This document shows, piece by piece, positions 134-39,301 of a stretch of 39,301 nt of DNA (its first letter is position 1; each line of letters begins with the position of its first letter). The stretch spans positions 1-39,301 of IMG/VR virus record IMGVR_UViG_3300030106_001791; one strand, written 5' to 3'. Position numbers and translations under genes: made by a program. The notes under the pieces were generated by a model. It was not told where the DNA came from and did no database searches. It saw only the letters and a list, made by a program, of their open reading frames with translations. This stretch comes from a virus.

Positions 134-639
134 ATAGTTCCATCAGCTAATTGTGTTGATGTAATACTACCGACTCTTTCTAAAAATGCTTTTGTTACTG
201 CATCTTGAGCATTAGTAGGATCTGAAACATTGATTATTGGTTTGTTCTTTGCATCTTGTCCTTGCGGTGTATTTTGAATACCAAGAGCAGCTTCGTCTTT
301 AGCTTCTTGTATTCCATATAATAGCTGTAATACAGCAGTATCCAGGTCGGCAGCAGTTAAAGTCGAGCCATCCACAAAATCAACAAGAGCAGTTGTTAAT
401 GGAGTATCTCTACTGATCTCAATTGCTACTCCAGACTTAGGCGCACCAGTAGCCTCTTGCGTAGATGTAGCTGAACTAAGAGTGCTAAATTCAATAGTCG
501 TATCGTTTACAAAAGTAAAGCCAGTATTGGTTACATTATTAAGTGCGACAACAATATGATCCTTTTTAACGTATGGAAAGGGAATTGAAAATTGTTTTGT
601 ACTTCCGTTGCCAGTACCAGTAAATTGAGCAAAAGGCAT
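1..639 (-). CDS. Tail fibre protein, N-terminal part (gene continues across the window ends)
   Basis: This is the first 213 codons of the tail fibre, which attaches to the tail through its N-terminal domain and binds the host surface through its distal end. The start (MPFAQFTGTGNGSTKQFSIP) opens a T7 gp17-like N-terminal domain, including the typical DGSTLTAADLDTAVLQLL stretch. The ATG at 639-637 overlaps the TAA of the upstream gp16-like gene (TAATG), with an AGGACAGG ribosome site just before it. The frame is open to base 1. Because bases 1-133 recur at 39169-39301 in the same frame, the gene continues at 39168 and ends at 36718, giving an inferred protein of about 1029 residues. The truncation here is an artefact of where the circular map was cut. 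Confidence 0.9.
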   Translation of the reverse strand, partial: MPFAQFTGTGNGSTKQFSIPFPYVKKDHIVVALNNVTNTGFTFVNDTTIEFSTLSSATSTQEATGAPKSGVAIEISRDTPLTTALVDFVDGSTLTAADLDTAVLQLLYGIQEAKDEAALGIQNTPQGQDAKNKPIINVSDPTNAQDAVTKAFLERVGSITSTQLADGTIVNADVNASAAIAGTKISPDFGSQNIATSGTVDGRDVSADGTKLD

Positions 640-16934: not shown

Positions 16935-17921
16935 TTATGAGTTAGACGCATATACTTCGATAGCGCAATCTGGGCGCAGTACACCTGTACCATGAGCCAT
17001 AGATCCGACCATAAATACACCCTGGTATAACGCATGAACATCATTACCAGTTTGTTCCATTTTAAGATCCATCAACTTAACTGTACCAACTGCATCTGGT
17101 GTAAATGCAAGGCCGATATTATCGGTGTAGTTAGCATGATAAGTATTGTTCTCTCCAGTAACAGCAGATCTGTTTGTCTTAGGTAGGTTATTGGATTTAA
17201 TGATTGAAATACCAGCAACCTTAAGAACTGTACCTTCTGCGTATGCTCCAGAACCACCCCAATCTCTGTTAAGAACATCTGTAGTTCTTGCAAGTTTGTA
17301 GTAATTTGCTGGATCAAGTGCAAAGTATCTTGCATTTTCTGGGATATTATTCTCATCAAATGTCTGCGCAACTGTCCATAGAGCAGTAACAAGATCAGCA
17401 CCAGTAACGGCAGCAACCGCAGCAGCAGTATTGGCAGTACCAGACTTAAGAATCTTAACTCTTGTACCTCCAGGTAAATCTGTATTAAAGTTTGTACCTG
17501 TTCTAGCAGCTTGAGCTATTGTTGCAGCTACGTTTTCATCAAAACGATAGGCTAGGGCATTACCCATTTCCTCTGTATATTTTGACCTCACATCATAGTG
17601 ATTTTTAGCCTCGTCAATGTCAGCCAAAAATACTTGAGATACAAGTTTGTCATCAATATTTATGGTAGCCTCAGCGTGTTTGATGCTATCCCCTGTCAAT
17701 TGAGTGCCAGGTGTATGATACGAAGTTGAGCTGAGTCCAATAATTGGAAATTGTGCGGATTTTCCTGATTGAATCGTCCGAACTGTATGTAATGACTCGA
17801 ATATTGTAGCTTTACGGAATGCTGATAGCACCTCTCCACTCCACACTTTTAAGAAAAGTGCGTCATAAGACGTACCAGTAGCATTGACCAAGCCGAGTCT
17901 TGAAGGACTAAAATTAGCCAT
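16935..17921 (-). CDS. Major capsid protein (T7 gp10-like)
   Basis: This 328-residue protein forms the icosahedral shell. It opens MANFSPSRLGLVNATGTSYD, then DALFLKVWSGEVLSAFRKAT and SGKSAQFPIIG, which are characteristic of T7-like HK97-fold capsid proteins (T7 gp10A is 345). It lies upstream of the tail tube A gene, but scaffold and portal are not next to it as in T7; they are on the opposite strand at 31520-34124. A hairpin follows the stop, and a divergent intergenic region with a long inverted repeat precedes the start. No Shine-Dalgarno sequence is evident before the ATG at 17921. Confidence 0.96.
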   Translation of the reverse strand: MANFSPSRLGLVNATGTSYDALFLKVWSGEVLSAFRKATIFESLHTVRTIQSGKSAQFPIIGLSSTSYHTPGTQLTGDSIKHAEATINIDDKLVSQVFLADIDEAKNHYDVRSKYTEEMGNALAYRFDENVAATIAQAARTGTNFNTDLPGGTRVKILKSGTANTAAAVAAVTGADLVTALWTVAQTFDENNIPENARYFALDPANYYKLARTTDVLNRDWGGSGAYAEGTVLKVAGISIIKSNNLPKTNRSAVTGENNTYHANYTDNIGLAFTPDAVGTVKLMDLKMEQTGNDVHALYQGVFMVGSMAHGTGVLRPDCAIEVYASNS

Positions 17922-19998: not shown

Positions 19999-20225
19999 AT
20001 AGGATTTACAGGAAAAATAGATATTTCTTTAACTCTAAACGTCAATATTTCCCATTCATCTTGCATCATTGCCATACACCAAGCAGTTTGGTAGTCATTT
20101 GCTTGGACTACAGTCTGAAATCCACCAATTCTAGGTTCATCTAGCTTAATTCCAGCAAATGCTGTTGGCAACCTTATACACCAGGCTCTTCTGTGCTTTG
20201 TATTTGTTTGATATGCCTTAAACAT
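19995..20225 (-). CDS. Hypothetical protein downstream of terminase (76 aa)
   Basis: The gene begins at the ATG at 20225, inside the last codons of the large terminase (8-nt overlap, upstream AGAGGT at a reasonable distance), and encodes MFKAYQTNTKHRRAWCIRLP with a compact remainder (EPRIGGFQTVVQANDYQTAW). A longer in-frame extension inside the terminase gene exists, but the coupled ATG is more plausible. The protein is small and globular in composition, with Trp and Cys but no membrane segment. Its tight coupling to terminase suggests a role in packaging or late expression; unproven. Confidence 0.65.
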   Translation of the reverse strand: MFKAYQTNTKHRRAWCIRLPTAFAGIKLDEPRIGGFQTVVQANDYQTAWCMAMMQDEWEILTFRVKEISIFPVNPI

Positions 20226-21939
20226 TGAACCACCGACCTCTGGTATTGGCTTTTCCAAGCCTGTCGAGGGGGATGCCAAGGATTTTTGCGTCCAACGCAC
20301 CTTCCAATTCGCCTTTGTGAGCAGCCAATTCCAAATCCCACAACTCCATTTCCCGATCTTTGATAGCTCTATCTTCATCTATTGCTAATGACTCATTCCA
20401 ATACTCCACCGCACCAGCCAAAGAGTCAAGTCTGTCATCATTTTGTAAACAGTTTCGATCAACAGTTATATGCGTCATTTGATGGAACAATTGATAGCCT
20501 AATGCTTTTTCTACCGAGTCCTCTGTTCGAGGTTTTGTATCATTTTCGATAACTGATCTATTAATTATTAGCCTATGTTGGTTCATTGCAGGCTCTAATG
20601 CGTTTATTATTCTTCTTTCTTTCTGAACATTGCTTCTAGTTCCTTCAATAGTGCAAGGATATATCTTCATAAGGTATGGTTTAAGCAAACTTTCCATCAT
20701 ACCTTGACCAAATTGATCTTCCAGGAGTATTAGTTTTACCTTATTACGCTTTGCAGCTTCAGCTATACCAGTTAAAACTGGTTCTGTATAACCTTCACAA
20801 AACGATCCGACCTCTAAAACGTATAAGTTTCCATTTAGATGCGCAACTATGCTATATGCTGTCTCATCAACACCCTTACCAGAAGGGTCAATCATCATTA
20901 CGCAACCTGTAAATGGCAACCAATCGCCATGTAAGAAAGCTGGCTTGTGATAATAGTCATTACTAAAACCTACTGCTGGCAAATCAGAGATTCTATATTC
21001 TGCACCTGACGACCACACCACTTTTTCGGGTGCATGATCTTTTACTTCCATAACAACTAAGTCCTGGAGTCTTAATGGAAAGCGTTGTAGGTCAGATAAC
21101 GTAGTATCTAATTGAAACTGCAAAGTAAACTGTGACCGACCATAGCTTGCTTCCCTTTCTAACAAGTCCATTTCGCTAAACCTGTCTGGATCTGTAGGTT
21201 GACCAGGTTTTGTTGCAGCCAATCCTTTTATCATTGGAGCTAATGCGTCTCCATATTTCTCAGGTTTCTTTGGATAACGACTTGTCCATATTCTGCAATC
21301 GTATCCTCGTAATCTCAGTTTGTTATATATGCTTTCTTCTGTCTGTGGTGTACCTAAAAACATTATTTCGCCATCAGGCTTAAGAATAGCGTTAAATTCT
21401 CCGCAACATTGCAATAATTTCTCTCTCATGCCTACAGTCCAGGCTGTATTAGGTACTTCGCAGTCATCAGCAAGTATTAAATCAGCACGACTACCAGTTA
21501 ACTGTCCAAATATTCCTACACTCTTAACACTAGCTGATTGATCGGGTATAGCTGGACGCACATCAAATCTATTACTAGCTGATCTTTGCTCGTTTTTATC
21601 TGGTTCAAGGCATTTTAGTATAGGCATTTCCTGGATAATCCTTAAACAGAACTGAGCAAAGTCATCCGCCCTGGTCTTACTAGCTGATACAACCATTATC
21701 TTTTTCTGCGGATCATTCCTTAACAGCCATAACGTATAAGCAGCAGCCATCCACGACTTACCTACACCTCTAAACGCTTCAATAATTCTTCTCTTATTTC
21801 CTTTCTGCATATATTCAGCTATATCAAGCTGAACTGTAGTCGGATCAGGAAGCTGTAAGTGCCTCCATACTAAAACTAAAAAATATCTAAAATCTTTATC
21901 GTAAGGTTTCGGTAACTGCTGCCAATCTTCCTTCTTCAT
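20218..21939 (-). CDS. terL: Terminase large subunit
   Basis: This 573-residue ATPase-nuclease pumps DNA into the prohead and cuts concatemers, like T7 gp19 (586). The ATPase domain has Walker A in the AFRGVGKSW stretch (residues 55-62) and Walker B in ADLILADDCEVP (about 152-159). The nuclease domain shows acidic residues at MIDPSGKG (Asp351), LLEDQFG (Glu408-Asp409) and NDDRLDSLAG (about 501-505). The start overlaps the small subunit stop by one base. Unlike T7, the terminase genes lie at the head of the leftward unit, before capsid, rather than after the tail fibre. Confidence 0.96.
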   Translation of the reverse strand: MKKEDWQQLPKPYDKDFRYFLVLVWRHLQLPDPTTVQLDIAEYMQKGNKRRIIEAFRGVGKSWMAAAYTLWLLRNDPQKKIMVVSASKTRADDFAQFCLRIIQEMPILKCLEPDKNEQRSASNRFDVRPAIPDQSASVKSVGIFGQLTGSRADLILADDCEVPNTAWTVGMREKLLQCCGEFNAILKPDGEIMFLGTPQTEESIYNKLRLRGYDCRIWTSRYPKKPEKYGDALAPMIKGLAATKPGQPTDPDRFSEMDLLEREASYGRSQFTLQFQLDTTLSDLQRFPLRLQDLVVMEVKDHAPEKVVWSSGAEYRISDLPAVGFSNDYYHKPAFLHGDWLPFTGCVMMIDPSGKGVDETAYSIVAHLNGNLYVLEVGSFCEGYTEPVLTGIAEAAKRNKVKLILLEDQFGQGMMESLLKPYLMKIYPCTIEGTRSNVQKERRIINALEPAMNQHRLIINRSVIENDTKPRTEDSVEKALGYQLFHQMTHITVDRNCLQNDDRLDSLAGAVEYWNESLAIDEDRAIKDREMELWDLELAAHKGELEGALDAKILGIPLDRLGKANTRGRWFNV

Positions 21940-23232: not shown

Positions 23233-23811
23233 ATGTCAACTGCAACACTAACTAAACCTAAAGCATTAGAAAGCAAAGAGGGCAAAATCTCTATTTGTAT
23301 TCAATGCCTGGCAAGTTATAACGAGGGAACGCATCATTTTTATTGGTGCGATCTCGAAGCAATAGACTTGGACAACTTCGAAGAGGAGTTTAGAAAGTGT
23401 ATTGATTATGTTATTAAGACCAGCCCAAGCAATAGCGCCGAGGAATGGTTCTATACTGACCATGAGAACCTTAAGCCAATTTATGACGAGTACCAGGACA
23501 TTAAAACAATTAAGGAATACCTGGAAAAATACCAGGAATTTAAAGAGAATAATATCTCTATTGATTTAATGAATGAGTACCTAGAAAATTATGGAGAGGA
23601 TTTATCTTATTCAGATTTTGAGAGTTCATATCGTGGCGCTTATGATTCTAACGCTGATTATGCCGAAGAATTTTATACAGAGTGCGGAGACTATGACCCA
23701 AACAAGCAAAGCAATCTAGTTATAGATTGGGAAGCTACTTATAACTATTCAATGCGCCATGACATGACAGTACTAGAAGCAGATGGCGAAAGCCATTATT
23801 TCCTAGACTAA
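23233..23811 (+). CDS. ardA: ArdA-like antirestriction protein
   Basis: ArdA proteins mimic bent B-form DNA and block type I restriction-modification enzymes. This 192-residue protein carries the family pattern: CLASYNEGTHHFYW near residues 25-38, SAEEWFYTDHENL at 68-80, and SSYRGAYDSNADYAEEFY at 131-148. It ends in DWEATYNYSMRHDM and ESHYFLD, as ArdA ends do. It has about 43 Asp/Glu against about 15 Lys/Arg, the strong negative charge expected of a DNA mimic. The start has AGGA 7 nt upstream. It sits in the early block, the place where T7 encodes the unrelated DNA mimic Ocr. A 7-bp GC hairpin follows it. Usual ArdA length is about 165, so this one is slightly long. Confidence 0.78.
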   Translation: MSTATLTKPKALESKEGKISICIQCLASYNEGTHHFYWCDLEAIDLDNFEEEFRKCIDYVIKTSPSNSAEEWFYTDHENLKPIYDEYQDIKTIKEYLEKYQEFKENNISIDLMNEYLENYGEDLSYSDFESSYRGAYDSNADYAEEFYTECGDYDPNKQSNLVIDWEATYNYSMRHDMTVLEADGESHYFLD

Positions 23812-24568: not shown

Positions 24569-24620
24569 CATTACTATTCTTCTATTATTTATTTTTTTAT
24601 TTTTAATTATCACACAATGA
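24561..24620 (+). CDS. Putative 19-aa membrane peptide with TTG start
   Basis: AAGGAG at 24548-24553 lies 7 nt before TTG, opening a frame that encodes MHSITILLLFIFLFLIITQ, entirely a membrane helix. Its TGA overlaps the ATG of the next gene (ATGA at 24617-24620). That next gene has no ribosome site of its own, so translation through this peptide would deliver ribosomes to it. It may be a coupling leader as well as, or instead of, a functional peptide. Confidence 0.45.
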   Translation: MHSITILLLFIFLFLIITQ

Positions 24621-24925
24621 GCGAACCAATTTACAAGCTAACTGACAAAAAGCCAGGACAAAAACATGGCAACAATAAAGGACAAGTTCTTTATTACTTA
24701 TCAGGTTCAGAATATTTTATTTCCGCAGCCTGGAATTATCCACCTATCGAGGCAACTCATTGGCAAATGTTAGTAGATGCGCCAGCTCCTACGGAAACAA
24801 CCGAGGAGATTCAAGATAGATTGCTAAATGAATACTTAAAGGATGCTTTTCCAAATGCTGCTGATAGAGTGGCTATGTATCCATTAATTAAACGAGCCTG
24901 GAGGTACGCACAAGATGTTAAATAA
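24617..24925 (+). CDS. Hypothetical protein (102 aa)
   Basis: The product (MSEPIYKLTDKKPGQKHGNN) has a Trp-rich middle (AAWNYPPIEATHWQMLVDAP) and a helical C-terminus (RVAMYPLIKRAWRYAQDVK). It is soluble and has no Cys pair or nucleotide motif. The ATG overlaps the TGA of the TTG-start membrane peptide, and its own end overlaps the RHH gene by 11 nt. It belongs to the early cluster directly before the polymerase. Family unknown to me. Confidence 0.65.
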   Translation: MSEPIYKLTDKKPGQKHGNNKGQVLYYLSGSEYFISAAWNYPPIEATHWQMLVDAPAPTETTEEIQDRLLNEYLKDAFPNAADRVAMYPLIKRAWRYAQDVK

Positions 24926-25097
24926 AGATGACTCAGTTAAACTTCAAGTTATGATTCCTACTCAGTTAGAAAAAAGAATTAATTATCTAGCTGAAGCCCA
25001 GGGAATTAATAAAGCTGACCTAGTTAAACGTGTATTAACTGTATGGTTCGAGCAAAACTACGAAGCTAAGTACGATTTTTGGAGTCAAGTTAATTGA
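24915..25097 (+). CDS. Ribbon-helix-helix (CopG/Arc-type) DNA-binding protein
   Basis: This 60-residue protein has the compact RHH layout: a beta strand (VKLQVMIPTQLEKRI, residues 8-22) and two helices (INYLAEAQGINKADLVKRVL, 22-41, with a turn at QGIN). It would bind an operator as a dimer. GGAGG at 24900-24904 precedes the ATG. Its stop overlaps the TTG start of the RNA polymerase (TTGA), so regulator and polymerase are translated from one message. It may repress early host-type promoters or tune polymerase expression; the target is not visible. Confidence 0.7.
   Translation: MLNKDDSVKLQVMIPTQLEKRINYLAEAQGINKADLVKRVLTVWFEQNYEAKYDFWSQVN
25081..25096 (+). promoter_or_regulatory. Ribosome-binding site for the TTG start of RNA polymerase
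   Basis: GGAG at 25081-25084 lies 9 nt before the TTG at 25094, within the last codons of the RHH gene, favouring this start over internal ATGs. Confidence 0.5.
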
Positions 25098-27475
25098 GTA
25101 CACTTGAAGACCAGTTAGCTAATGAAAAATTAATGCTTAATCTTGGACGAGACAGGGTAAGAGCTGCTTCGTCCAGGAGGAAAGCAAACAACATGGAGTC
25201 TCTTTCAGAATATGGAGAGACTCTTTGTTCTGTTGGTGTACAAAATATTATTTATAACTTGCGAGCAGTAAGAAAGAAGATAGAGAAGGGCAGAGCTGGA
25301 CAAAACTATGCTTTACTTACTCCATTATTAGACCTCGACCCAAGCCAGATAGCAGCAGCTTCGATAAGATCGGTAGTCGATAGCTTAAGCATGACTCCTA
25401 CGCTGCACCAGGTATCTAACAACGTGATAGAAAAGATATGGATTGAGACTATGTTAGATAGGGCAACTGATAATGAACTAAGTAAATATAAACGTGGTCG
25501 GCATAAGAAAAGATACAGAATATTTTTAATAAATAATATGATTAATACAGAGCAATGGAATCCCAGGCAACGAATGGCAAGCGGTTTATTTATGGTCGAA
25601 CTAATACAAAAATATACTGGTTTAATAGAAATAGTTCTGGACAAATCTACAACACCACCTAAAAGGATAGTCAGGGCGACACAAGATTGTATGAATTGGA
25701 TTAAGGATGTTGATGAAAAATTAAAACTTATGAGTCCTAATTTTTTGCCTATGCTGGTAGAACCTAAAGAATTTACAACTCCTTATGATGGCGGATATAT
25801 AACGAAGCCAGCTCGATATAATTTATTTAAAAGTAACAACGAGATACTTGCTAAAAACATTAAAGGCAATGAACCTTATCTTAATGCTGTTAATATCCAG
25901 GGCAAAGTAGCCTGGCAAGTAAACAAATATATATTAGATCAAGCTCTATATGCTTACGATAATAATTTAGAGATCGGATGCTTGCTACCAAGAGACGGAT
26001 ACTCTGTACCTCCATATCCTAAGCATTGCGAAACGGATAGCCAGGAAGTTTTGCAATGGAGAATAAACTGCAAGAATATAATCGACAAGAATAACTACAC
26101 ACAAGGTAGTCGTATTGGTATAGCTAAAACATTTTGGATGGCAAAGAAATTTAAGGATGCCGAGCAATTATATTTTCCAAAGCAGCTAGACTTTCGAGGA
26201 CGTATCTACGATAGAGTTCCATACCTTAACAGCCAGGGCAATGATCTATCGAGGGCGCTATTACAATTTACAAAAGGTAAGCTAATAAAAACTGAAGAGG
26301 ATTTGAATTGGTTAAAGATACATGGTGCAAATATGTATGGAATCAAGTCAGATTTCAAAACAAGAATACAATGGGTTAACGAGAACATTAATTTAATTTA
26401 TGGAGCTGGTAGAGATTGTTGGAGTCAGCCAGAATTTTGGATGCGTGGCAGCAAGGCTTGGAGTTTTCTTAGTTTTTGCAGGGCAATGTATTTATATTCA
26501 CAAGAACCAAGTAGCTATTTATGTCAGCTTCCCTGCCACCTTGATTGTACTTGCAGCTCAATTCAGCATTTCTCTGGCTTGCTTCGCAGCAAAGTGATGG
26601 GAGAAAAAGTTAACCTGGTAAATAGCGAGCAGCCACAAGATATATACAGCGAGGTAGCACAAGCAGTTAACAACGAACTAAGGTCGGACGATCAGGAAGT
26701 AAATAGGAAATGGTTAATGCTTAATCCTGATAGATCACTAGCCAAGCCTTGCGTAATGACAGCTCCTTACGCTGCAACTAACAGCGCCTTCTATCACTTT
26801 GCTTACTCCTGGGCTAATGAAAAAATGATGACGACAATGGGTAAAGGTAAACATAACTGGTTAAGAAAACCATTAGCTAAAAGTACTGTGGGTTACATGG
26901 CTCAGTTACTTTATAAGCATTCATGCCAGGCTATTAAGCCAGCAGTAGGAGCTATGAAATTCTTTAGGCACATAGGTAGAGAGCTAGGTAAGGATAATAA
27001 GGGAGTGCAATGGCATAGTCCTAGTGGATTGTTGGTACATCAAAAGTATTTAGATCAAAAGAAATCAAGAATCCAATTAAAGTATTTATCTGACGTTTAT
27101 CTGGATATAAGAACAAACATAGATACTCAAAAAGTAGATACAAGAAAGATGTCACTAGCTATCTCAGCAAATATATTGCATAGTTTTGATGCAAGTCACA
27201 TGGCATTATCCACAATTCATGCTTCAATAAAAGGAGTCGAAAATATTGCTGGAATCCACGATTGTTTCGTTACTACTCCGTCTGAAATGAGTGAACTGCG
27301 CAACTCAGTTAGACAAACATTCGCTGATATGTATTCAGAGAATTGTTTATCGAAGCTAAAGGCAGAATTAAAAGCACAACTAACAGACAACCAAATAAAA
27401 CATCTACCCTCCGAGCCTACGCTTGGCGAGTTAGATGTTGAACAAACTAGAACATCTACTTATTTTGTCACATGA
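25094..27475 (+). CDS. Single-subunit DNA-directed RNA polymerase (T7 gp1-like)
   Basis: This 793-residue polymerase transcribes the phage middle and late genes from its own promoters. The catalytic motifs are intact: the DFRGR motif (residues 366-370, LDFRGRIYD), motif A HLDCTCSSIQHFSG with metal-binding Asp484, motif B with Lys551 and Tyr559 (AKPCVMTAPYAAT), and motif C GIHDCF with Asp723. The distance from motif C to the end (about 70) matches T7, but the C-terminus is STYFVT rather than the FAFA foot. The N-terminal region is about 90 residues shorter than in T7 (883). It starts at TTG overlapping the RHH gene and overlaps the SSB gene by 4 nt. Confidence 0.96.
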   Translation: MSTLEDQLANEKLMLNLGRDRVRAASSRRKANNMESLSEYGETLCSVGVQNIIYNLRAVRKKIEKGRAGQNYALLTPLLDLDPSQIAAASIRSVVDSLSMTPTLHQVSNNVIEKIWIETMLDRATDNELSKYKRGRHKKRYRIFLINNMINTEQWNPRQRMASGLFMVELIQKYTGLIEIVLDKSTTPPKRIVRATQDCMNWIKDVDEKLKLMSPNFLPMLVEPKEFTTPYDGGYITKPARYNLFKSNNEILAKNIKGNEPYLNAVNIQGKVAWQVNKYILDQALYAYDNNLEIGCLLPRDGYSVPPYPKHCETDSQEVLQWRINCKNIIDKNNYTQGSRIGIAKTFWMAKKFKDAEQLYFPKQLDFRGRIYDRVPYLNSQGNDLSRALLQFTKGKLIKTEEDLNWLKIHGANMYGIKSDFKTRIQWVNENINLIYGAGRDCWSQPEFWMRGSKAWSFLSFCRAMYLYSQEPSSYLCQLPCHLDCTCSSIQHFSGLLRSKVMGEKVNLVNSEQPQDIYSEVAQAVNNELRSDDQEVNRKWLMLNPDRSLAKPCVMTAPYAATNSAFYHFAYSWANEKMMTTMGKGKHNWLRKPLAKSTVGYMAQLLYKHSCQAIKPAVGAMKFFRHIGRELGKDNKGVQWHSPSGLLVHQKYLDQKKSRIQLKYLSDVYLDIRTNIDTQKVDTRKMSLAISANILHSFDASHMALSTIHASIKGVENIAGIHDCFVTTPSEMSELRNSVRQTFADMYSENCLSKLKAELKAQLTDNQIKHLPSEPTLGELDVEQTRTSTYFVT

Positions 27476-28095
27476 CTTTAAAAGCATTTTATGTCGTCAC
27501 TCCCAAGTGCCAACCACAATATGCCTGGTTAGTTGAACCAGACACAGCCTTTAACAAGCGTCCAGAATGGAAGGTTGATTTAATCCTGGACTCTAATGAT
27601 CCTAAAACTGCTAGTGTTGCACAGCAAATAGAGGATGGCTTCGAGGCATACAAGAAGTCACTAAAAGAAATAAATCCAGGTAAAACATTTAAGTTAGCCG
27701 ACAGTACAAGGTTTGAATTTACTACTCACAATGGAGCTAAAGTTTTTAAAGTAAAAACCAGGAGATATGTAACTGGAACAGGCCAGGATGGGAAGCCATA
27801 TCAATTAACACCACCATTGTTAATGGATAAATACAAGACTCCTATTACTGGAGAGGAGAGAGAAAAGTATAAAGGATTAGGAGAAGGAACTGTTGTCCAG
27901 GTACGACTACGTTGCCAGGGATATGACCACCCTGCTCATGGAGTTGGGCTAACAATACAGCCTGACTTAGTAGTGTTCCATAACTTTGTACCTTATGAAA
28001 AAGAAGTCAGCCTTGAAGGGTTCGAGTTCGAGAGTGAAGAGAAGGATCTCGCACCCTCAAACATTGACAACAGCTCAGGGGGAAATACATTTTAG
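27472..28095 (+). CDS. Single-stranded DNA-binding protein (T7 gp2.5-like)
   Basis: The 207-residue product protects ssDNA in replication and recombination. The opening (MTLKAFYVVTPKCQPQYAWL), KRPEWKVDLIL and later GEGTVVQVRLRCQGYDHPAH fit gp2.5-type OB-fold SSBs next to RNA polymerase. In T7 the last 26 residues are very acidic and end in Phe, contacting the DNA polymerase. Here the final Phe is present (GGNTF), but the acidic cluster (EFESEEKD) lies further in and the last 15 residues are nearly neutral. The ATGA overlap with the polymerase gene indicates coupled translation. It overlaps the endonuclease gene. Confidence 0.88.
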   Translation: MTLKAFYVVTPKCQPQYAWLVEPDTAFNKRPEWKVDLILDSNDPKTASVAQQIEDGFEAYKKSLKEINPGKTFKLADSTRFEFTTHNGAKVFKVKTRRYVTGTGQDGKPYQLTPPLLMDKYKTPITGEEREKYKGLGEGTVVQVRLRCQGYDHPAHGVGLTIQPDLVVFHNFVPYEKEVSLEGFEFESEEKDLAPSNIDNSSGGNTF

Positions 28096-28438
28096 ATCAA
28101 AGTTCGAGGCGCAAGTTGCCAAAGAACTAATAAAATCTAAAGCTAAGTTTACCTATGAATCTGTCAGCTATGATTACATCATCAGCAGTAGCTACACTCC
28201 TGACTTCATCCTCCCTAAGTGTGTGGTCGAAGTCAAAGGAGTACTTACTAAAGAGGAAAGAAAAAAATATATTGCAGTTAAGACGCAACATCCCACACTA
28301 AGTATTCGTTTTTGTTTTCAAAACGCAAAGAACAAACTTAGTAAAGCCAAGAGAAGCCTGACGTATTGGCAATGGGCTGAACGTCATGGCTTTCCCTGGT
28401 GCAACAAAACTATCCCTAAAGAATGGTATGAAAATTAA
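28064..28438 (+). CDS. Endonuclease I (T7 gp3-like Holliday-junction resolvase)
   Basis: This enzyme cuts branched DNA and helps degrade host DNA. The catalytic set is visible: Glu in FRSKFEAQVAKEL, Asp in YTPDFILP, and ExK in VVEVKG, as in T7 endonuclease I. The C-terminal part (QHPTLSIRFCFQNAKNKLSK, WAERHGFPW, IPKEW) also matches. The start is uncertain. TTG at 28064 gives 124 residues and puts the catalytic Glu near position 15 (20 in T7), with minimal overlap with SSB; an ATG at 27995 or 27986 would overlap SSB by about 100 nt. No strong ribosome site supports any choice. Confidence 0.88.
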   Translation: MTTAQGEIHFRSKFEAQVAKELIKSKAKFTYESVSYDYIISSSYTPDFILPKCVVEVKGVLTKEERKKYIAVKTQHPTLSIRFCFQNAKNKLSKAKRSLTYWQWAERHGFPWCNKTIPKEWYEN

Positions 28439-28520
28439 AGAAAAAATTTTTCAGGCAAAGAAAAGAATAAAAGAATTAGAAAGACTTATTGCCTATTGGG
28501 AAAATGCCAAGCAAATATAA
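28428..28520 (+). CDS. Putative 30-aa coiled-coil peptide bridging endonuclease and primase genes
   Basis: The frame encodes MKIKEKIFQAKKRIKELERL and ends YWENAKQI, a single charged amphipathic helix. It starts 11 nt before the endonuclease stop and ends 17 nt inside the primase-helicase gene, covering the whole gap. This layout is typical of small coupling genes. It could be real or only a leader frame. Confidence 0.4.
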   Translation: MKIKEKIFQAKKRIKELERLIAYWENAKQI

Positions 28521-30096
28521 AAGCAAAGAGCCTTGTCCAGAGTGCGGAAGTAAAGATAACGTAGCTGTTTATGATGATGGTCATAAGCATTGCTTTGGAT
28601 GTGGCTGGCAATATCAACCAGGTAAAGATAAACCAACAAAAACATTTACACCAATGAAGAAACAATGGAAGCCTTTAGTTCCACTACCCTGCGAACTACC
28701 TAAACGTGGAATCACTAAAGAAACTTGCGAACTATTTGGTTATGGGATTGCAAATTTTAATGGAGCTGATTGCCAAGTAGCTAGTTATAAAAGTCAAAGC
28801 GGAATACTTGCAGCTCAACATATAAGATTTAGAGACAAGAGATTTATATGGCAAGGAGAACTAAAAGATATAAAGCTATGGGGTCAGGATTTATGGAGAC
28901 AACACAATACTGGTCAGACATTTGTTGTCATTACTGAAGGAGAGATAGATGCAATGTCTGTTTCCCAGGTGCAAGGTAACAAGTTTCCTGTAGTTAGTTT
29001 GCCTTCGGGAGCGCAAAGTGCTACGAAGTATGTAGCTGCAAATTTGTCATGGTTATCTCAGTTCGTCCGTATAGTTATTTGTTTTGACTCGGACGCACCT
29101 GGTTTGGATGCTGCCGAAAAGGTTGCAAAAGTCTTACCTACTGGTAAGGCAGCTATCGCAAACCTACCAAGAAAGGATGCTAATGAAATGCTCCTCGCAG
29201 GGGAAGGCGAGTTACTTAAAGACTTACTCTGGAAAGCAAGTCCTGTTAGACCCGACAACATACACTCTGCCTACAGTTTATGGGAAGATTTAATTAAAGA
29301 GGATACCTCAAAGGTATGTAGTTATCCCTTCCCAGAACTAAATAGAATATGTTGCGGTTTTCGTAAGCAAAGTTTGACTACTATCTGCGCTGGTACTGGA
29401 GTTGGAAAGAGTTTACTATGCAGAGAACTAGCTCATCATTTTTTAATTAACGGACTTAAAGTAGGATGGATAGGCTTAGAAGAAAGCAGCAAGAGAAGTT
29501 TACAAGGCATACTATCTATTGCATTAAACAAACCAATACATTTAGACGAGAAAGCAGTAGATCAGGAGGAGCTAAGACAAGCCTTTGATTATTTATTTAG
29601 CGACAATAACTTTATATTGCTGCAACACTTTGGTTCACTAGATCCTGACAGGTTAATAGATCAAATAACATACATGGCAACTGGCGAGGAATGTGACGTT
29701 ATATTCCTGGATCATATTTCCCTGGTAGTAAGTGGACTAAGTGATGGGGATGAAAGAAAACAAATAGATGTATGTTGTACCAAGCTGAGACAAGTGGTAG
29801 AAAAAACAGGAGTAGGTTTAGTTATGGTTAGTCACTTAAGAAGGACGGATGGTAAACCAGCAGAGGAAGGAGGAGACGTTAACTTGCAAAGCCTAAGAGG
29901 GAGTTCAAGCATAGCTCAGTTAAGTGACTTGGTGATTTGTGGTATTAGATCGCAGCAAGACGAGGCAACATCAAACGAACTACAGTTAAAAGTATTAAAG
30001 AATAGACATAGCGGTACATTAGGTCGAGCTGACAAGCTCGAATACAACGAGAAAACTGGCAGACTATCTGCCTCCCTTACTGATTTTTTATTATGA
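28504..30096 (+). CDS. Primase-helicase (T7 gp4-like)
   Basis: The 530-residue protein unwinds DNA and primes lagging-strand synthesis. Zn-binding cysteines are C11, C14, C30 and C33 (CPECG, CFGCGW). The TOPRIM primase core has Glu145 (TEGEIDAMS) and Asp195/Asp197 (CFDSDAPG). The RecA-type helicase has Walker A AGTGVGKS at 296-303 and Walker B DVIFLDH at 398-404, with MVSHLRR after it. I start at ATG 28504 (GGGA 4 nt upstream) rather than an in-frame TTG at 28489. The C-terminus (RLSASLTDFLL) lacks the acidic tail by which T7 gp4 binds DNA polymerase. Its stop overlaps the exonuclease start (ATGA), leaving no room for gene 5. Confidence 0.95.
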   Translation: MPSKYKSKEPCPECGSKDNVAVYDDGHKHCFGCGWQYQPGKDKPTKTFTPMKKQWKPLVPLPCELPKRGITKETCELFGYGIANFNGADCQVASYKSQSGILAAQHIRFRDKRFIWQGELKDIKLWGQDLWRQHNTGQTFVVITEGEIDAMSVSQVQGNKFPVVSLPSGAQSATKYVAANLSWLSQFVRIVICFDSDAPGLDAAEKVAKVLPTGKAAIANLPRKDANEMLLAGEGELLKDLLWKASPVRPDNIHSAYSLWEDLIKEDTSKVCSYPFPELNRICCGFRKQSLTTICAGTGVGKSLLCRELAHHFLINGLKVGWIGLEESSKRSLQGILSIALNKPIHLDEKAVDQEELRQAFDYLFSDNNFILLQHFGSLDPDRLIDQITYMATGEECDVIFLDHISLVVSGLSDGDERKQIDVCCTKLRQVVEKTGVGLVMVSHLRRTDGKPAEEGGDVNLQSLRGSSSIAQLSDLVICGIRSQQDEATSNELQLKVLKNRHSGTLGRADKLEYNEKTGRLSASLTDFLL

Positions 30097-30833
30097 CCTT
30101 ATTAATTGACGGAGATCACTTGGCTTTTACTGCTGCTTGTGCAGTAGAACAAGTAGTTGAATGGGAAACTAATGTATGGACTACTCATTCTTTTTTAAGT
30201 GATGCAACTAAAGTAGTCGAAACAAAACTAAAAGGCTTTATTGATATAGCTGAAGATGAAAAGGTAGTGATGACATTTAGTTCATACCCTACATTTAGAC
30301 ATGAAATATTCCAGGACTACAAAGCAAACAGAATAACAAAGCGCAAGCCTACAGTATTTAAACCATTAATAGAATGGATGGAACAGGAATGGGAGTCAAT
30401 AAGATACGCTAACTGCGAAGGGGATGACGTACTAGGAATTTTAGCTACATCAAAAACTTATGATGATCCAGTAATAGTTAGTGTTGATAAAGATATGAGA
30501 ACTATACCCTGCAAACTATTAGCTGGAGACGATCTCGAACTAATAACTAAAAGGCAAGCCGATAGAAATTGGATGAAGCAAGCGTGTAGCGGAGATCCAA
30601 CTGACAACTATAAAGGTATTCCAGGTGTAGGTTTAGTAGGAGCTGACAAGATACTAGGAGATAGTATTAAGTTAGATGATATGTGGGAGAAGGTAGTCGA
30701 GGCATATAAGAAACAAAAGCTAACTTATGCTGACGCATTATTAAATGCCAGGCTGTCTAGGATACTACGTCAAGAAGATATTAATTTAAATACAGGAAAA
30801 ATTAAATTGTGGTCGCCAAAGAAAAAATTATAG
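30093..30833 (+). CDS. 5'-3' exonuclease (T7 gp6-like, FEN/PIN fold)
   Basis: This 246-residue nuclease removes RNA primers and degrades host DNA to nucleotides. Metal-binding acids are in MTLLIDGDHLAF, the NCEGDDVLG motif and VSVDKDM. The helix-hairpin-helix region ACSGDPTDNYKGIPGVGLVG is standard for the family. It is somewhat shorter than T7 gp6 (300). The start overlaps the helicase stop by 4 nt. Its 3' end overlaps the convergent 48-residue gene by 6 nt. Without a phage polymerase, its primer-removal function must work with a polymerase from another source. Confidence 0.93.
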   Translation: MTLLIDGDHLAFTAACAVEQVVEWETNVWTTHSFLSDATKVVETKLKGFIDIAEDEKVVMTFSSYPTFRHEIFQDYKANRITKRKPTVFKPLIEWMEQEWESIRYANCEGDDVLGILATSKTYDDPVIVSVDKDMRTIPCKLLAGDDLELITKRQADRNWMKQACSGDPTDNYKGIPGVGLVGADKILGDSIKLDDMWEKVVEAYKKQKLTYADALLNARLSRILRQEDINLNTGKIKLWSPKKKL

Positions 30834-31519: not shown

Positions 31520-33247
31520 ATGGAAGTCACACTTACAAGTGATTTAGATGCAACAGGAAAATCTTATCTTGAAATGGATAAGAAAGGAATTACTGTAGCG
31601 TCTAAGTACGAACAACAAAAATCTAAACGTAATCCTTATGCGGATATAGCAAGGAAGTGTGCAGAGGTTACTATACCTTTTGAATTTCCAGACACACAAT
31701 ATTCTGGTTCAGCTAGAGGACAGGTAAATACACCTCACCAAAGTGTAGGAGCAAGGGGAGTTTCCAACATTGCTAATAAGCTCGGCCTATCTCTTTTCCC
31801 TCCCAACACAAGTATGTTTAAGTTGGAGATAGACGACTTAGCATTAAGACTCCAGGACGTAGATCCGCAACAAAAGACAGAACTAGATAGCGCTTGCGTA
31901 AAGGTAGAGTTAGCAGTAGGTACTATGCTTGAAACACTATCTGCAAGAGCAGCATTGTATGAAGCATTTAAGCAATTAGTTATTGCAGGGAATGTATTGT
32001 TATATGTAAACCCAACTGGTATTCGAGTATTGCATCTTGAAAGATATACACTTACCAGAGATCCAATGGGTAATGTAGAGGAAATAATAATAGAAGAGGA
32101 AGTAAGTCCTAAGTTACTTCCAAAAGGGTTTCTGTCTCCTTCGGATGCAAAACAACACGATAAGGATTATGGGAAAAAAGATTGTAAAATTTATACTTGC
32201 GTTAAATACAAAGATGATAAGTGTCATTGGTATCAAGAGGTAAAAGGTAAACCAGTTCCAGGAACTACTGGTATGAGTCCGAGGGAATGTAGTCCATTCA
32301 TCCCACTACGTTTTCAATCAATGGACGGAGAAGACTACGGACGTTCATACATAGAGCAATGGTATGGCGACCTTTCTGCTCTTGATAATTTGTATCAGGC
32401 AGTATTGGAGGCTAGTGCAGCCATGAGTAAAATTTTATTTATGGTAAATCCCAATGGCACTACAAGGCCAAGAGCCTTAAGTAATGCAGAGAATGGAGCT
32501 ATTATCCAGGGCAACGCTGCGGACGTTACAGTTCTGCAAAGTCAAGGCAAGTTAAATGATATGAGCCTGGCAAACAATACTATAGATAGAATCGAACAAC
32601 GACTTGAGTTTGCTTTCTTGTTCAATAGCGCAGTACAAAGACAGGCTGAAAGAGTTACAGCCGAAGAGATCCGCTATGTTGCTGAATCATTAGATGAAAG
32701 TTTAGCTGGTTTGTATTCTGTATTGACCCAAGAACTACAACTACCTTTAGTTCGTAGGTTGATTTATATAATGCAAAGAACAAATAAAATTCCTGACTTT
32801 CCTAAAGGTCAAGATGGAAAAGATTTAATAATGCCTAAGCCAGTTACAGGTTTAGAAGCTGTAGGTAGAGGAGACGACAGGAATAAATTAATGGATTTTA
32901 TTGGAGCTGCAACAGATACATTAGGAAAAGAGACAATAGAAAAATATATCAATATGGAAGAGGCATTAAGAAGATTGGCAGCAAGTAGTTCTATTGATGT
33001 AACTAACTTAGTTAAGACACCACAACAGTTACAAGAAGAACAACAAGCAGCAGCCCAAGCACAGAAAGAAATGCAACAACAGGAAATGATGGGTAATATA
33101 ATGACAAGCCCTGCTGCTGGCAAAATAGCAGATAACTTTACACAACCAGGTAGTCCGTATGGCCCTCAAATCCAACAACCAGGAGCAGAAGGAGAGCAAG
33201 GAAATGCAGCCCTCCCCAACCTCAGCAACATCCCAACCGCCACTTAG
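31520..33247 (+). CDS. Portal / head-tail connector protein (T7 gp8-like)
   Basis: The 575-residue protein forms the dodecameric portal at the capsid vertex. Recognisable parts include RNPYADIARKCAEVTIPFEF, ARGVSNIANKLGLSLFPPN, and FIPLRFQSMDGEDYGRSYIE. The helical wing segment follows (RVTAEEIRYVAESLDESLAG). The C-terminal tail is Gln-rich (QLQEEQQAAAQAQKEMQQQE). T7 gp8 is 536. It and the scaffold lie in the rightward unit, away from capsid and tail genes on the opposite strand. The 3' end overlaps a 43-residue frame. Confidence 0.95.
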   Translation: MEVTLTSDLDATGKSYLEMDKKGITVASKYEQQKSKRNPYADIARKCAEVTIPFEFPDTQYSGSARGQVNTPHQSVGARGVSNIANKLGLSLFPPNTSMFKLEIDDLALRLQDVDPQQKTELDSACVKVELAVGTMLETLSARAALYEAFKQLVIAGNVLLYVNPTGIRVLHLERYTLTRDPMGNVEEIIIEEEVSPKLLPKGFLSPSDAKQHDKDYGKKDCKIYTCVKYKDDKCHWYQEVKGKPVPGTTGMSPRECSPFIPLRFQSMDGEDYGRSYIEQWYGDLSALDNLYQAVLEASAAMSKILFMVNPNGTTRPRALSNAENGAIIQGNAADVTVLQSQGKLNDMSLANNTIDRIEQRLEFAFLFNSAVQRQAERVTAEEIRYVAESLDESLAGLYSVLTQELQLPLVRRLIYIMQRTNKIPDFPKGQDGKDLIMPKPVTGLEAVGRGDDRNKLMDFIGAATDTLGKETIEKYINMEEALRRLAASSSIDVTNLVKTPQQLQEEQQAAAQAQKEMQQQEMMGNIMTSPAAGKIADNFTQPGSPYGPQIQQPGAEGEQGNAALPNLSNIPTAT

Positions 33248-33335
33248 TAAAGCGGAAGTCACAACTGACTCTCCCGATCTCCCAAGAGAAATTACTATTA
33301 CACCCGAAATGGTTGAGGAGTTCCAAAACAAATAG
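33204..33335 (+). CDS. Small protein between portal and scaffold (43 aa)
   Basis: The frame (MQPSPTSATSQPPLSKAEVT, then EITITPEMVEEFQNK) starts 44 nt inside the portal gene with GGAGAG/AAGGAA upstream, and ends 6 nt before the scaffold ATG, filling the gap exactly. It is Pro/Ser/Thr-rich at the front with an acidic end. It could be a minor scaffold partner or only a coupling frame. Confidence 0.45.
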   Translation: MQPSPTSATSQPPLSKAEVTTDSPDLPREITITPEMVEEFQNK

Positions 33336-33341
33336 ATTATT

Positions 33342-34124
33342 ATGCCAGAACCAATCACTATTACTGACGAAGGCAAGCCTTCTTTGTCCGAAGATAATCA
33401 AGCTGCATTAGAAGAACTAAAGCAAGCTGAAGCAGATCTTGAAAAAGAAAATGCTATTGCCGAGGAGGATCAATTAATTGGAGGCGAGTTTCAATCTCAA
33501 GAAGATTTGCTTGCTGCTTACCAGGAATTAAAAACAAAACAAGAACAGGTTGACGCTCCAGGGGAACCGCAAACTGCTCAACAAATTTACGGAGAGACAG
33601 TTGGTAATAGGCTTGAAGAAGCTGGAGTTAACTATTCAAAGATAAATGAATATTGGCAACAGAATGGAGAGATTACAGACAAGCATTACAAAGAGCTAGA
33701 GAAAGCTGGCTTTCCTAAAACATTAATAGATACACATTTAAATGGTTTAAGGAACGAAGCTACTGTATTAGAGTCTGACCTTACAGCTATTAAGGATACA
33801 TACGGAGGCGAAGATGCTTTTACTGCTATGCAGTATTGGGCTAGAGATAACCTAACTGATGCAGAAAAGAACGCTTACTCCAATGGTATTAATAGTGGAA
33901 ACTTAGAGACAGTAAAGCTAACTGTTGCTGGACTTCATGCCAGGTACAGTAATGCTGTAGGTAGTGAACCTAATCTTATATCTGGTAAAGCTGCTACTTA
34001 CTCAAGCGATAAGTTCGAGAGTACTGCTCAACTAGAGGAAGCAATGAATGATCCTAAGTACAAAAAAGATCCAGCCTTTAGAGCTAAGGTAGAGGAAAAG
34101 CTAAGCAGAAGTAGTATCTTCTGA
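33342..34124 (+). CDS. Scaffolding (capsid assembly) protein (T7 gp9-like)
   Basis: The 260-residue, acidic, helical protein (MPEPITITDEGKPSLSEDNQ; EELKQAEADLEKENAIAEED) follows the portal gene, as gp9 does in T7 (307). It guides capsid shell assembly and is lost on maturation. The C-terminal part (EEAMNDPKYKKDPAFRAKVE, then EKLSRSSIF) is typical for T7-like scaffolds, where it contacts the shell. It ends the rightward unit and overlaps the last leftward gene by 24 nt tail-to-tail. Its partner, the capsid protein, is encoded in the opposite unit at 16935-17921. Confidence 0.9.
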   Translation: MPEPITITDEGKPSLSEDNQAALEELKQAEADLEKENAIAEEDQLIGGEFQSQEDLLAAYQELKTKQEQVDAPGEPQTAQQIYGETVGNRLEEAGVNYSKINEYWQQNGEITDKHYKELEKAGFPKTLIDTHLNGLRNEATVLESDLTAIKDTYGGEDAFTAMQYWARDNLTDAEKNAYSNGINSGNLETVKLTVAGLHARYSNAVGSEPNLISGKAATYSSDKFESTAQLEEAMNDPKYKKDPAFRAKVEEKLSRSSIF

Positions 34125-36257: not shown

Positions 36258-36718
36258 GCTGCCATCTCCATTAATGTAAGTGAAGACCCACCTATTGACA
36301 TATTTTGAGAATTAGAATGATTAAATATAATATTATAGCTTCCGTTAGTTCTTTGACCAGTAACAGAATACGTTATAGATGAAGTAGAGCCAGCTACGTC
36401 TATGTAGTTAGCATTTGGACTTGATGAGTCACCATTACTTGCATCTTCGATTCCTATATAACTAGCAACTGTATAAAGAGCAGATCCACCTTTTCGTATC
36501 CACATATTCCAATAGGTATCAGAAGATCTAGAGCCACAACCATTACAACTTACTATAATCATAATTCTGCTTGATGTTGCTTTAGGAGTTATAGCTAGTG
36601 TCATTAAATCTCTACTATTATTATCATTCCATTCAATTTGACTGTTATAGTTACTTTGAACTGTTTGAATTATTCTTCCAGAATTGGAGTTAGAACCATC
36701 GCCATAATAAATAGCCAT
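36254..36718 (-). CDS. Fibre-cluster structural protein (154 aa)
   Basis: The product begins MAIYYGDGSNSNSGRIIQTV, a motif seen at the start of distal fibre or receptor-binding proteins in marine phages. It is beta-rich with many Ser/Asn (SDTYWNMWIRKGGSALY, TGQRTNGSYNIIFNHSNSQ) and ends in a hydrophobic stretch. It is probably a small trimeric jelly-roll tip. A strong GGAGG lies 7 nt before the ATG, which overlaps the tail-fibre stop (TAATG). Confidence 0.72.
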   Translation of the reverse strand: MAIYYGDGSNSNSGRIIQTVQSNYNSQIEWNDNNSRDLMTLAITPKATSSRIMIIVSCNGCGSRSSDTYWNMWIRKGGSALYTVASYIGIEDASNGDSSSPNANYIDVAGSTSSITYSVTGQRTNGSYNIIFNHSNSQNMSIGGSSLTLMEMAA

Positions 36719-39301
36719 TATGATACCTCCGTTAAAGCAAACTTATACTTCTTGCCATTGCGTTTGTTCACTAAGAAAAGATCTTCTGCTCCTTCTTGTA
36801 TAGTATAACTTCCCCAAGTTCCGTCAACGTCATTAGCACCACCTTCGTTAGATAAGTTAAGGTCATTGGTGTAGATGTTTCTCCAACGATATGAGTTAGT
36901 ACCTAAATCGTAAGTATTATTAGTTCCGGGTCTAAAGTGTCCATTTGCACCATCAAAAATAGCTTTTATCGAACCATTTGTGCTAAAAGCCATAGAACAG
37001 GTTGAAGCCGGATTATCAGTACGAATGTGTAAGTTACCAGTAGTATCATGCTCGATAGTAGCAAAGTCACCACCAGAACCATCACCATTAGAATCACCGT
37101 CTAAAGTTATTTTTACACCACCACCATTAGTCGAGCCAAGAAGAAGATTAGTAGCTCCTGATTGTTGAATAGCAACATACTTTGCTTCTATATTTCCGTT
37201 TGTATTGAGGTGAATGTTTGTATTACTAGGCCCACCGCCTTGGTTAGAACCAGTTAAACCGTTTCCAAGATATAAACCATCACCACGGAATACATACTTA
37301 ATACCGTTACTATTAGCCATTGAAGCCATATAATTAGTTTCAGTATTGCTTGGATATGTATGGTTTACGTTTGCTGTGTAGTTTAAATATGTACCATCAT
37401 AGGTAAAGTTTGCTTCACCATTTAAAGTTGTGCCACCTTCGCCTGTCATGACTCTGTTGGCTGCGTTGTTGTTTATTGTTGTACTTGTAATTCCAGTAAG
37501 GTTTGATCCATCTATTGCAGGTAATGTTGCAGGGAATCTAGCGTCAGGTATTGTTCCAGATGTTAAATTAGATGCACTTAAATTAGTAAGGTCTATAGTT
37601 TCAAAGCTTGGGTCAGCACCATTATTAGCTCTTAAAAACTTTCCATTACTATTGCTATCGCCATGCAATAACTTATCTAAAGTAACTGCTTGATCTGCCA
37701 ACTTAGCAGTTTGAACTGATCCGTTTTGTAGGATCGCACTTGTTACTGTGTTGTTACTTGGAGTTCCAATATTTACTGTAGAACCCATTACTATTATGAA
37801 TACATCTGATCCACTAGGAGGTGCAGCAGATAGTTTTACAGTACTGCCAGATAAAGCAAAACCCTCTGAAGGTGTAGATGTACCAGCATTAGGTTTTTGT
37901 ACAACACCATTAATACTAAGGATTATCTGCTGAGCATTTGTTGGTGCATTACTTACAGTAAAGTCAGTTCTACTTCCGTCAAACGACTCACTAAATGTAG
38001 AGATAAAGAAGTTACCAATACTTTGTGCTTCTTCAAAAGCACCTGACGTTGCATTATATACTAATAACTTTTGAGTAGATGTATTAAATATTAGATCCCC
38101 TGCATCATTATCACTTGTAGGGTTTGATGATACAACTCTGTATCTATTTCCAAAGTCATTTATATCATTACTAAGTTGCTCTACATCAGCTTCTTTTGCT
38201 AATAGCTTATGGTAAGTATAAGTTTGACTAGAGCCTGTAGAACTGACCATAAGGCCAAGACCAGCAGCCATTGTCTTACTTTGTAAGCTAGAAGGAAAAC
38301 CATTAATAGTTACGTTATCTGATCCATTACCTGTTGTTCTTGCGTTTGTAGCAACACCACTTCCATTGACTACAAGACCCTCTATATCTGAAATACTGAT
38401 AACTACACCAGATGAAGGTTGTGAAGTAGGAAAGCTATCTTCATTAGCTATAACTTCAAGACCACCAATAGGTGCTATTTGCGCAGCTACATAATCTACA
38501 ACTGCGCCAGATGTAGGAAATTTAGTGTCGTCATCAGTTATAGTTGTCTGCTTTGCCATGCCATCTATTTGGTTTAAGTCGGCAATGTCAGAAGTAAGTG
38601 CGGTACTGTCAGCCAACTTAGAAGCTGTGCCTGACTGCATACCAGCAAGAGTTGATAGCTCTGCATCTGCAATTTCAGAAACCCCTACTGAATTTGCTTG
38701 TAGGTGTTCTGATCCGATAGCATTGTCAGCTATTTTTGTAGCATCCACGCAATCAGCAGATAAATGAGAAGTGTCCACACTTCCGTCAACTAGTTCACTA
38801 CTGTCAACTGAGTTTGCTTGTAAATGTTCTGATCCAATAGAGTTGTCGGCTATGTTATCTCCGTCCACACAATCGTTGGATAAGTGTGAATGATCTATAC
38901 TTCCATCAATTAATTCACTACTGTCAACTGAATTTGCTGCAAGCTCAGAACTCGTTACTGAATCCGCTGCAAGATGACTAGCATCTAAAGGACTTCCAGC
39001 TATAAGTGCTTTTATTTCTGATATTGTTTGATCGGTAGTCGCATTTGCTTCAATGGCATTTAGCTTTGCAAGTAAGGCATCAGTAAAAGCATTGGTATTA
39101 TTTTCCGCTTCATATAACGATTTTATTTCTGATCCTGTCTGATCGTCTTTAGCTGACGTTTCAATTGTATCTAGCTTTGTACCATCAGCAGATACATCCC
39201 TTCCATCAACAGTTCCAGATGTAGCAATATTCTGACTGCCAAAATTAGGAGATATTTTAGTTCCAGCTATAGCTGCACTTGCGTTTACATCAGCATTAAC
39301 A
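36718..39301 (-). CDS. Tail fibre protein, C-terminal part (gene enters from the window end)
   Basis: The frame is open from 39301 to the TAA at 36718-36720 and joins in phase with the N-terminal part at 1-639. A GTG at 38868 is not a credible start because the coding sequence continues far upstream. The stalk has helical repeats (DQTGSEIKSLYEAENNTNAF), then two 40-residue SVDSSEL..GSEHLQA repeats, then a segment with DFTVSNAPTNAQQIILSING and a KLLHGDSNSNGKFLRANNGA segment. The end (TYDLGTNSYRWRNIYTNDL, then YTIQEGAEDLFLVNKRNGKK) is a common marine phage fibre ending. The distal part should bind the host receptor. Confidence 0.92.
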   Translation of the reverse strand, partial: VNADVNASAAIAGTKISPNFGSQNIATSGTVDGRDVSADGTKLDTIETSAKDDQTGSEIKSLYEAENNTNAFTDALLAKLNAIEANATTDQTISEIKALIAGSPLDASHLAADSVTSSELAANSVDSSELIDGSIDHSHLSNDCVDGDNIADNSIGSEHLQANSVDSSELVDGSVDTSHLSADCVDATKIADNAIGSEHLQANSVGVSEIADAELSTLAGMQSGTASKLADSTALTSDIADLNQIDGMAKQTTITDDDTKFPTSGAVVDYVAAQIAPIGGLEVIANEDSFPTSQPSSGVVISISDIEGLVVNGSGVATNARTTGNGSDNVTINGFPSSLQSKTMAAGLGLMVSSTGSSQTYTYHKLLAKEADVEQLSNDINDFGNRYRVVSSNPTSDNDAGDLIFNTSTQKLLVYNATSGAFEEAQSIGNFFISTFSESFDGSRTDFTVSNAPTNAQQIILSINGVVQKPNAGTSTPSEGFALSGSTVKLSAAPPSGSDVFIIVMGSTVNIGTPSNNTVTSAILQNGSVQTAKLADQAVTLDKLLHGDSNSNGKFLRANNGADPSFETIDLTNLSASNLTSGTIPDARFPATLPAIDGSNLTGITSTTINNNAANRVMTGEGGTTLNGEANFTYDGTYLNYTANVNHTYPSNTETNYMASMANSNGIKYVFRGDGLYLGNGLTGSNQGGGPSNTNIHLNTNGNIEAKYVAIQQSGATNLLLGSTNGGGVKITLDGDSNGDGSGGDFATIEHDTTGNLHIRTDNPASTCSMAFSTNGSIKAIFDGANGHFRPGTNNTYDLGTNSYRWRNIYTNDLNLSNEGGANDVDGTWGSYTIQEGAEDLFLVNKRNGKKYKFALTEVS
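38695..38934 (-). repeat. Two imperfect 120-bp tandem repeats in the tail-fibre stalk
   Basis: Copy one (38815-38934) encodes NSVDSSELIDGSIDHSHLSN and a half ending GSEHLQA. Copy two (38695-38814) encodes NSVDSSELVDGSVDTSHLSA and the same ending. A partial third copy (NSVGVSEIAD) follows. Such repeats lengthen the coiled stalk and can change copy number by recombination. Confidence 0.75.
39169..39301. repeat. Right copy of the 133-bp window-end direct repeat
   Basis: Same sequence as 1-133 except T39246 for C78, which changes one fibre codon from Asp (left copy) to Asn. The difference may be a population polymorphism or a sequencing error. Confidence 0.85.

Follow-up and report, generated by a model that had tools for sequence, protein, structure and literature searches.

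A cyanopodovirus lineage without a DNA polymerase gene also lacks the acidic primase-helicase tail but keeps an acidic SSB tail

Introduction

Cyanopodoviruses that lack a DNA polymerase gene account for 43.5% of surface-ocean cyanopodovirus reads (Cai et al., PMC9860041). The MPP-C isolates P-SCSP1a-u, which infect Prochlorococcus, are without this gene (Cai et al. 2022, PMC9860041; OM416763-OM416779). Pol I or Pol III has been proposed as the substitute, with the phage single-stranded DNA-binding protein (SSB) and the primase-helicase as possible points of contact with the host enzyme (Cai et al., PMC9860041). The isolates also have a long latent period (12-15 h vs 6-8 h; Cai et al., PMC9860041), which is compatible with either polymerase.

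In T7, the acidic tails of the primase-helicase gp4 bind two basic patches of the polymerase gp5, and removing 17 residues from the gp4 tail leaves a processivity of about 5 kb instead of 17 kb (PMC12593628). The tail of T7-type SSBs has a further role in modulating DNA binding (PMC5686142). A large share of ocean cyanopodoviruses copies its DNA without a recognizable polymerase of its own, and a comparison of these tails narrows the question of how this is done.

Here, we analyze an entire virus record of 39,301 bases (IMGVR_UViG_3300030106_001791), hereafter the window. It represents an uncultured MPP-C subclade; the polymerase-less group itself has already been published. What is new is that the polymerase-minus lineage is also without the acidic gp4 tail, and that its SSB tail is still acidic.

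Results

The window covers essentially the whole genome of an uncultured cyanopodovirus of the MPP-C type. Its two ends match over 133 bp, with 132 of 133 positions identical. Closing the ends fuses two minus-strand frames, the N-terminal (1-639) and C-terminal (36718-39300) parts of the tail fibre, into a single protein of ~1030 amino acids; the homologue at the equivalent place in P-SCSP1a has 1079. Given this overlap and the in-frame closure of the fibre, we treat the genome as complete, with a length of ~39.17 kb after closing, slightly above that of the MPP-C isolates (37.3-37.9 kb).

The closest phage relatives of the window are the Prochlorococcus phages P-SCSP1a-u. They provide the best phage matches for its RNA polymerase (52.7% to P-SCSP1a) and primase-helicase (73%), and most of its conserved genes map to P-SCSP1a, although no phage record matches it closely at the DNA level. 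In a gp4 tree, the window, L001, and L002 (P-SCSP2) fall into one clade (SH-aLRT 100) apart from MPP-A, MPP-B, and P-RSP2. Our test of the lineage thus used gp4, while the published MPP-C grouping is based on a nine-gene tree. The earlier note on this DNA had pointed to reports of a polymerase-less marine cyanopodovirus lineage and left membership open; the window belongs to it, as MPP-C. None of the auxiliary metabolic genes psbA, hli, mazG, rnr, talC, or thyX was found among the Pfam and PHROGs matches, a scan that covered all but a few ORFs shorter than 130 amino acids. The window contains no detectable tRNA, and its sequence gave no host link.

The replication module lies on the plus strand. 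The T7-like RNA polymerase (25094-27475; PF00940, 1.9e-77; phrog_414, 4.7e-176) is listed with a TTG start, and a downstream start is possible. It is followed by a gp2.5-like SSB (27472-28095; phrog_112, 2.5e-14), a gp3-like endonuclease I (27995-28438; PF05367, 2.7e-28), a gp4-like primase-helicase (28489-30096; phrog_239, 1.7e-167) that ends TGRLSASLTDFLL without an acidic tail, and a gp6-like 5'-3' exonuclease (30093-30833; PF02739, 1.6e-14; phrog_107, 4.2e-53). Unlike in polymerase-plus pelagiphages and roseophages, no gp3.5-type lysozyme/amidase was found in this module, either between endonuclease I and gp4 (28439-28488) or in the remainder. Directly upstream of the RNA polymerase, a 102-residue protein (24617-24925, plus strand) is conserved in the window's subclade and in the P-SCSP1 subclade. 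Further upstream lies an ArdA anti-restriction homologue (23233-23811, plus strand; PF07275, 5.5e-17), whose occurrence among the fetched loci is limited to a few members of this subclade (L003, L004, L012, and L029).

The window encodes no recognizable DNA polymerase. Pfam profiles for family A, family B (PF00136), and Pol III alpha, run against all six frames, gave no hit, and no polymerase was found among the window proteins scanned against Pfam and PHROGs. As a control, the family A profile was positive in every one of 10 polymerase-plus T7-like records, a set reaching from T7 to P-RSP2, and in 0/3 MPP-C records; it also found nothing in the 24 records related to the window. PF03175, another family B profile, gave nothing either but is uninformative, as its controls yielded no match. 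At the site that gene 5 occupies in relatives, the gp4 stop (30096) and the exonuclease start (30093) share four nucleotides, ATGA. Both statements in the earlier note, that no gene 5 separates these two genes and that no other large frame shows family A or B polymerase motifs, are thus borne out.

Could the gene be missing only from this assembly? The record is classed as linear by IMG/VR, as might be expected of an incomplete or misassembled contig. However, the 133-bp terminal overlap closes one open tail-fibre frame, the adjacency of gp4 and exonuclease is common to 159 loci, and the gene is also missing from the isolates. End overlap and synteny rule out truncation as the cause, and we regard the chance of an assembly artefact as negligible. 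A very divergent phage-encoded polymerase, missed by all profiles, is listed as a possibility by Cai et al. (PMC9860041). Two proteins of 959 and 2889 residues (639-12188) are nearly without recognized domains and could in principle hide one, but their genes fall where internal virion proteins are encoded, in synteny with P-SCSP1a. Of the replication-module genes from RNA polymerase to portal, only two (69 and 103 amino acids) lack an assignment, while the other small upstream ORFs, at 60-192 amino acids, are too short for any known polymerase. We consider such an enzyme very improbable.

The gp4 tree shows a single loss of gene 5, on the stem branch leading to the polymerase-minus clade. A tree of 92 gp4s places all 19 polymerase-minus sequences in a single clade (SH-aLRT 100), with one change of state. 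Three additional scans yielded no further independent loss. One candidate, L593, was discarded when its polymerase proved to sit beyond the fetched flank; the remaining unclassified loci break off shortly past gp4.

In this clade, the acidic gp4 tail has genuinely been lost, and throughout the lineage. We compared 175 gp4s, drawn from relatives in IMG/VR and a phage collection with one sequence per 90% identity group. Loci with a family A hit were scored as polymerase-plus (n=156), and those with an exonuclease immediately after gp4 and no such hit as polymerase-minus (n=19). The RLSASLTDFLL end of the window gp4 has a net charge of 0 across its final 15 residues. Over the same span, the median is -3 in polymerase-plus and 0 in polymerase-minus sequences, and charges of 0 or above occur in 3/156 and 13/19, respectively. 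A terminal Phe or Tyr is present in 143 of the 156 polymerase-plus gp4s vs none of the 19 others. The ends also differ in length: in the first set of 92 gp4s, the median number of residues past a TGRL anchor is 18 with polymerase and 10 without. The earlier note's claim that the window gp4 has no acidic tail therefore stands, and extends to the whole clade. Polymerase-plus relatives with non-acidic gp4 tails, which that note regarded as telling against its reading, do exist but are rare (the 3/156 above; phages with neutral tails are L131, L347, and L384). Votkovvirus-like phages have short gp4 tails that are yet acidic. Every polymerase-minus sequence traces back to a single loss, so the association of polymerase loss with gp4 tail loss counts as one evolutionary event and one data point.

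The rest of the window gp4 shows intact zinc-finger cysteines, Walker A, and other invariant residues in alignment, and the protein should thus be an active enzyme. AlphaFold models place 7 residues beyond the last strand in the window gp4 vs 9 in a polymerase-plus relative; both ends are of low confidence, and the models do not discriminate.

The shortened gp4 ends do not look like decaying sequence. Across the final 13 codons, pN/pS is 0.23-0.34 within each of four polymerase-minus subclades, compared to 0.07-0.16 for the gp4 body and 0.30-0.58 for polymerase-plus tails. The polymerase-minus ends, with values well below one, are thus under at least as much constraint as functional docking tails. 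Such purifying selection argues against simple decay, so that of the earlier proposal, polymerase loss followed by relaxation of its contacts, the loss is retained and the relaxation is not. In nearly all polymerase-minus ends, an aromatic residue lies ~7 positions past TGRL (LTDF, SDFFG, ETYFG, and ENTFG).

Trimming of the gp4 end might nevertheless be a mere by-product of the gene 5 deletion, through a junction scar or compaction and with no functional coupling. The 4-nt overlap of gp4 with the exonuclease start would fit this, as would the single loss and the small genomes (39.2 kb here and 37-38 kb in MPP-C isolates vs about 46 kb in MPP-A/B). However, the tails differ between subclades and are constrained within them, the nearly universal aromatic makes the ends look maintained, and gp4 and exonuclease do not overlap in P-SCSP2. 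On balance, we find a by-product rather unlikely.

SSB tail acidity is not a marker of a phage polymerase. The window SSB has a tail ending ...EFESEEKDLAPSNIDNSSGGNTF, with the terminal Phe kept, and a net charge of -1 over its last 15 residues, -5 over the last 25, and -7 over the last 30; polymerase-plus medians are -5 and -6 for the last 25 and 30. How acidic the tail appears varies with the span considered, since its acidic cluster, EFESEEKD, is positioned further upstream. All 16 polymerase-minus SSBs end in Phe, and other MPP-C subclades keep the ends EEEF, ADEF, or AADF without a phage polymerase, which is why we would not read the tail as a polymerase marker. The earlier note, which tied its claim to 28504-30833, an interval that leaves out the SSB gene (27472-28095), was correct that the last 15 residues are nearly neutral; its further step, that the tail has eroded, does not hold. 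Its idea of altered tails is right for gp4 and wrong for the SSB.

Over ~100 nt (27995-28095, plus strand), the SSB tail shares its DNA with a basic extension at the N-terminus of endonuclease I, which is read in the +1 frame. Acidic GAA and GAG codons of the SSB are read there as Lys or Arg; thus, the two tails may be coupled. The neutrality of the last 15 SSB residues might accordingly reflect overprinting by endonuclease I instead of a lost polymerase contact. Besides the position of the tail within the extension, this is favored by reduced synonymous change (pS 0.275 in the tail vs 0.583 in the body, and 0.24 in the endonuclease frame) and by the EEEF, ADEF, and AADF ends kept in polymerase-less subclades. 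Yet those subclades have the overlap too and remain acidic, and pN/pS of 0.87 in the endonuclease frame points to weak selection there. We consider overprinting a plausible account, at somewhat less than even odds.

The capsid-tail module of the window is inverted. It runs on the minus strand from 34303 through the contig ends to the major capsid protein, its first gene (16935-17921; PF21703, 1.8e-61), and extends from the capsid protein to small genes past the fibre. It is opposite to the plus-strand portal/scaffold block (31520-34124), comprising the portal protein gp8 (31520-33247; PF12236, 7.4e-72) and the capsid assembly scaffold gp9 (33342-34124; PF05396, 1.6e-13). Within the window's subclade, the inversion recurs in every related record that yielded both genes (8/8; G003-G010), compared with 0/3 P-SCSP1-like records; other MPP-C records are colinear too. 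Because all eight subclade records share it, the inversion is real and clade-defining, not an assembly error. No convincing inverted repeats join its two borders, and a 12-mer search found no shared promoter-like motif upstream of the module. The terminase large subunit (20218-21939; PF22530, 3.3e-34) is also on the minus strand. A gp14-like internal virion protein (12188-13081, minus strand) has a C-terminal Peptidase_S74 (intramolecular chaperone) match at the cut-off, which is unusual in an internal core protein.

Discussion

We favor a single loss of gene 5 accompanied by trimming of the gp4 contact, with a host polymerase working with the phage proteins, and give this reading a probability of about 0.7. 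Gene 5 was lost once, and the same lineage was left without the acidic, aromatic-ended gp4 tail that docks on gp5 in T7, so that the helicase now probably ends a few residues beyond its last beta strand. The phage's own gp4 would unwind and prime, its own SSB would coat the DNA, and its own exonuclease and endonuclease I would process it. We infer that synthesis is done by a host polymerase, borrowed through a contact that would no longer use an acidic gp4 tail. Pol III is the replicative enzyme, and on these general grounds we lean toward it as the more likely host enzyme than Pol I. A sliding-clamp-binding motif, looked for as a new contact, is not conserved in gp4 or the SSB. The SSB tail would have been retained for other jobs, such as tuning of DNA binding and partner contacts.

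The gp4 end may even have been remodelled to contact a host replication protein, such as Pol III, its clamp loader, or Pol I, through a short element that includes an aromatic residue and is maintained by selection. We regard this as speculative and on the unlikely side. If true, the remodelled end would be a natural experiment in the polymerase swap of a minimal replisome.

As the gp4 tail is gone clade-wide and the SSB tail kept, gp4 and the SSB call for separate tests. The gp4 end also provides a cheap sequence marker for polymerase-less T7-like contigs.

The window shares most with P-SCSP1a-u: the absence of a DNA polymerase, a non-acidic gp4 end, a minus-strand terminase, and a module of RNA polymerase, SSB, endonuclease I, primase-helicase, exonuclease, portal, and scaffold. 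Identities in the better-conserved proteins are only 47-81%: 81% for terminase (to P-SCSP1a), 79% for capsid, 73% for helicase, 53% for RNA polymerase, and 47% for exonuclease. Unlike these isolates, the window has the ArdA homologue and the inverted capsid-tail module.

P-SCSP2 (OM416780) and MedDCM-OCT-S08-C159 (GU943031) are also polymerase-less and have the window's gene order around gp4. They differ in their helicase (53% to that of the window) and in their gp4 ends, YENVFGD and YENDFADL, and the capsid module of P-SCSP2 is not inverted. Cai et al. report no recognizable endonuclease in P-SCSP2 (PMC9860041); we observe an intact, unannotated endonuclease I frame that overlaps the SSB 3' end (L002:5185-5628, OM416780) and is about 55% identical to that of the window.

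MPP-A and MPP-B (Syn5, S-CBP1, and P-SSP7) and P-RSP2 resemble the window in their T7-like modules and in their gp4, SSB, and exonuclease homologues. Unlike the window, they have a family A polymerase and gp4 tails of net charge -3 to -7 that end in DF. T7 itself has homologues of gp4, gp2.5, gp3, and gp6 in the same order as the window, but differs in two features that the window lacks, gp5 and a gp4 tail that is long, acidic, and terminated by DTDF. The T7-type acidic gp2.5 tail with a terminal Phe is present in the window.
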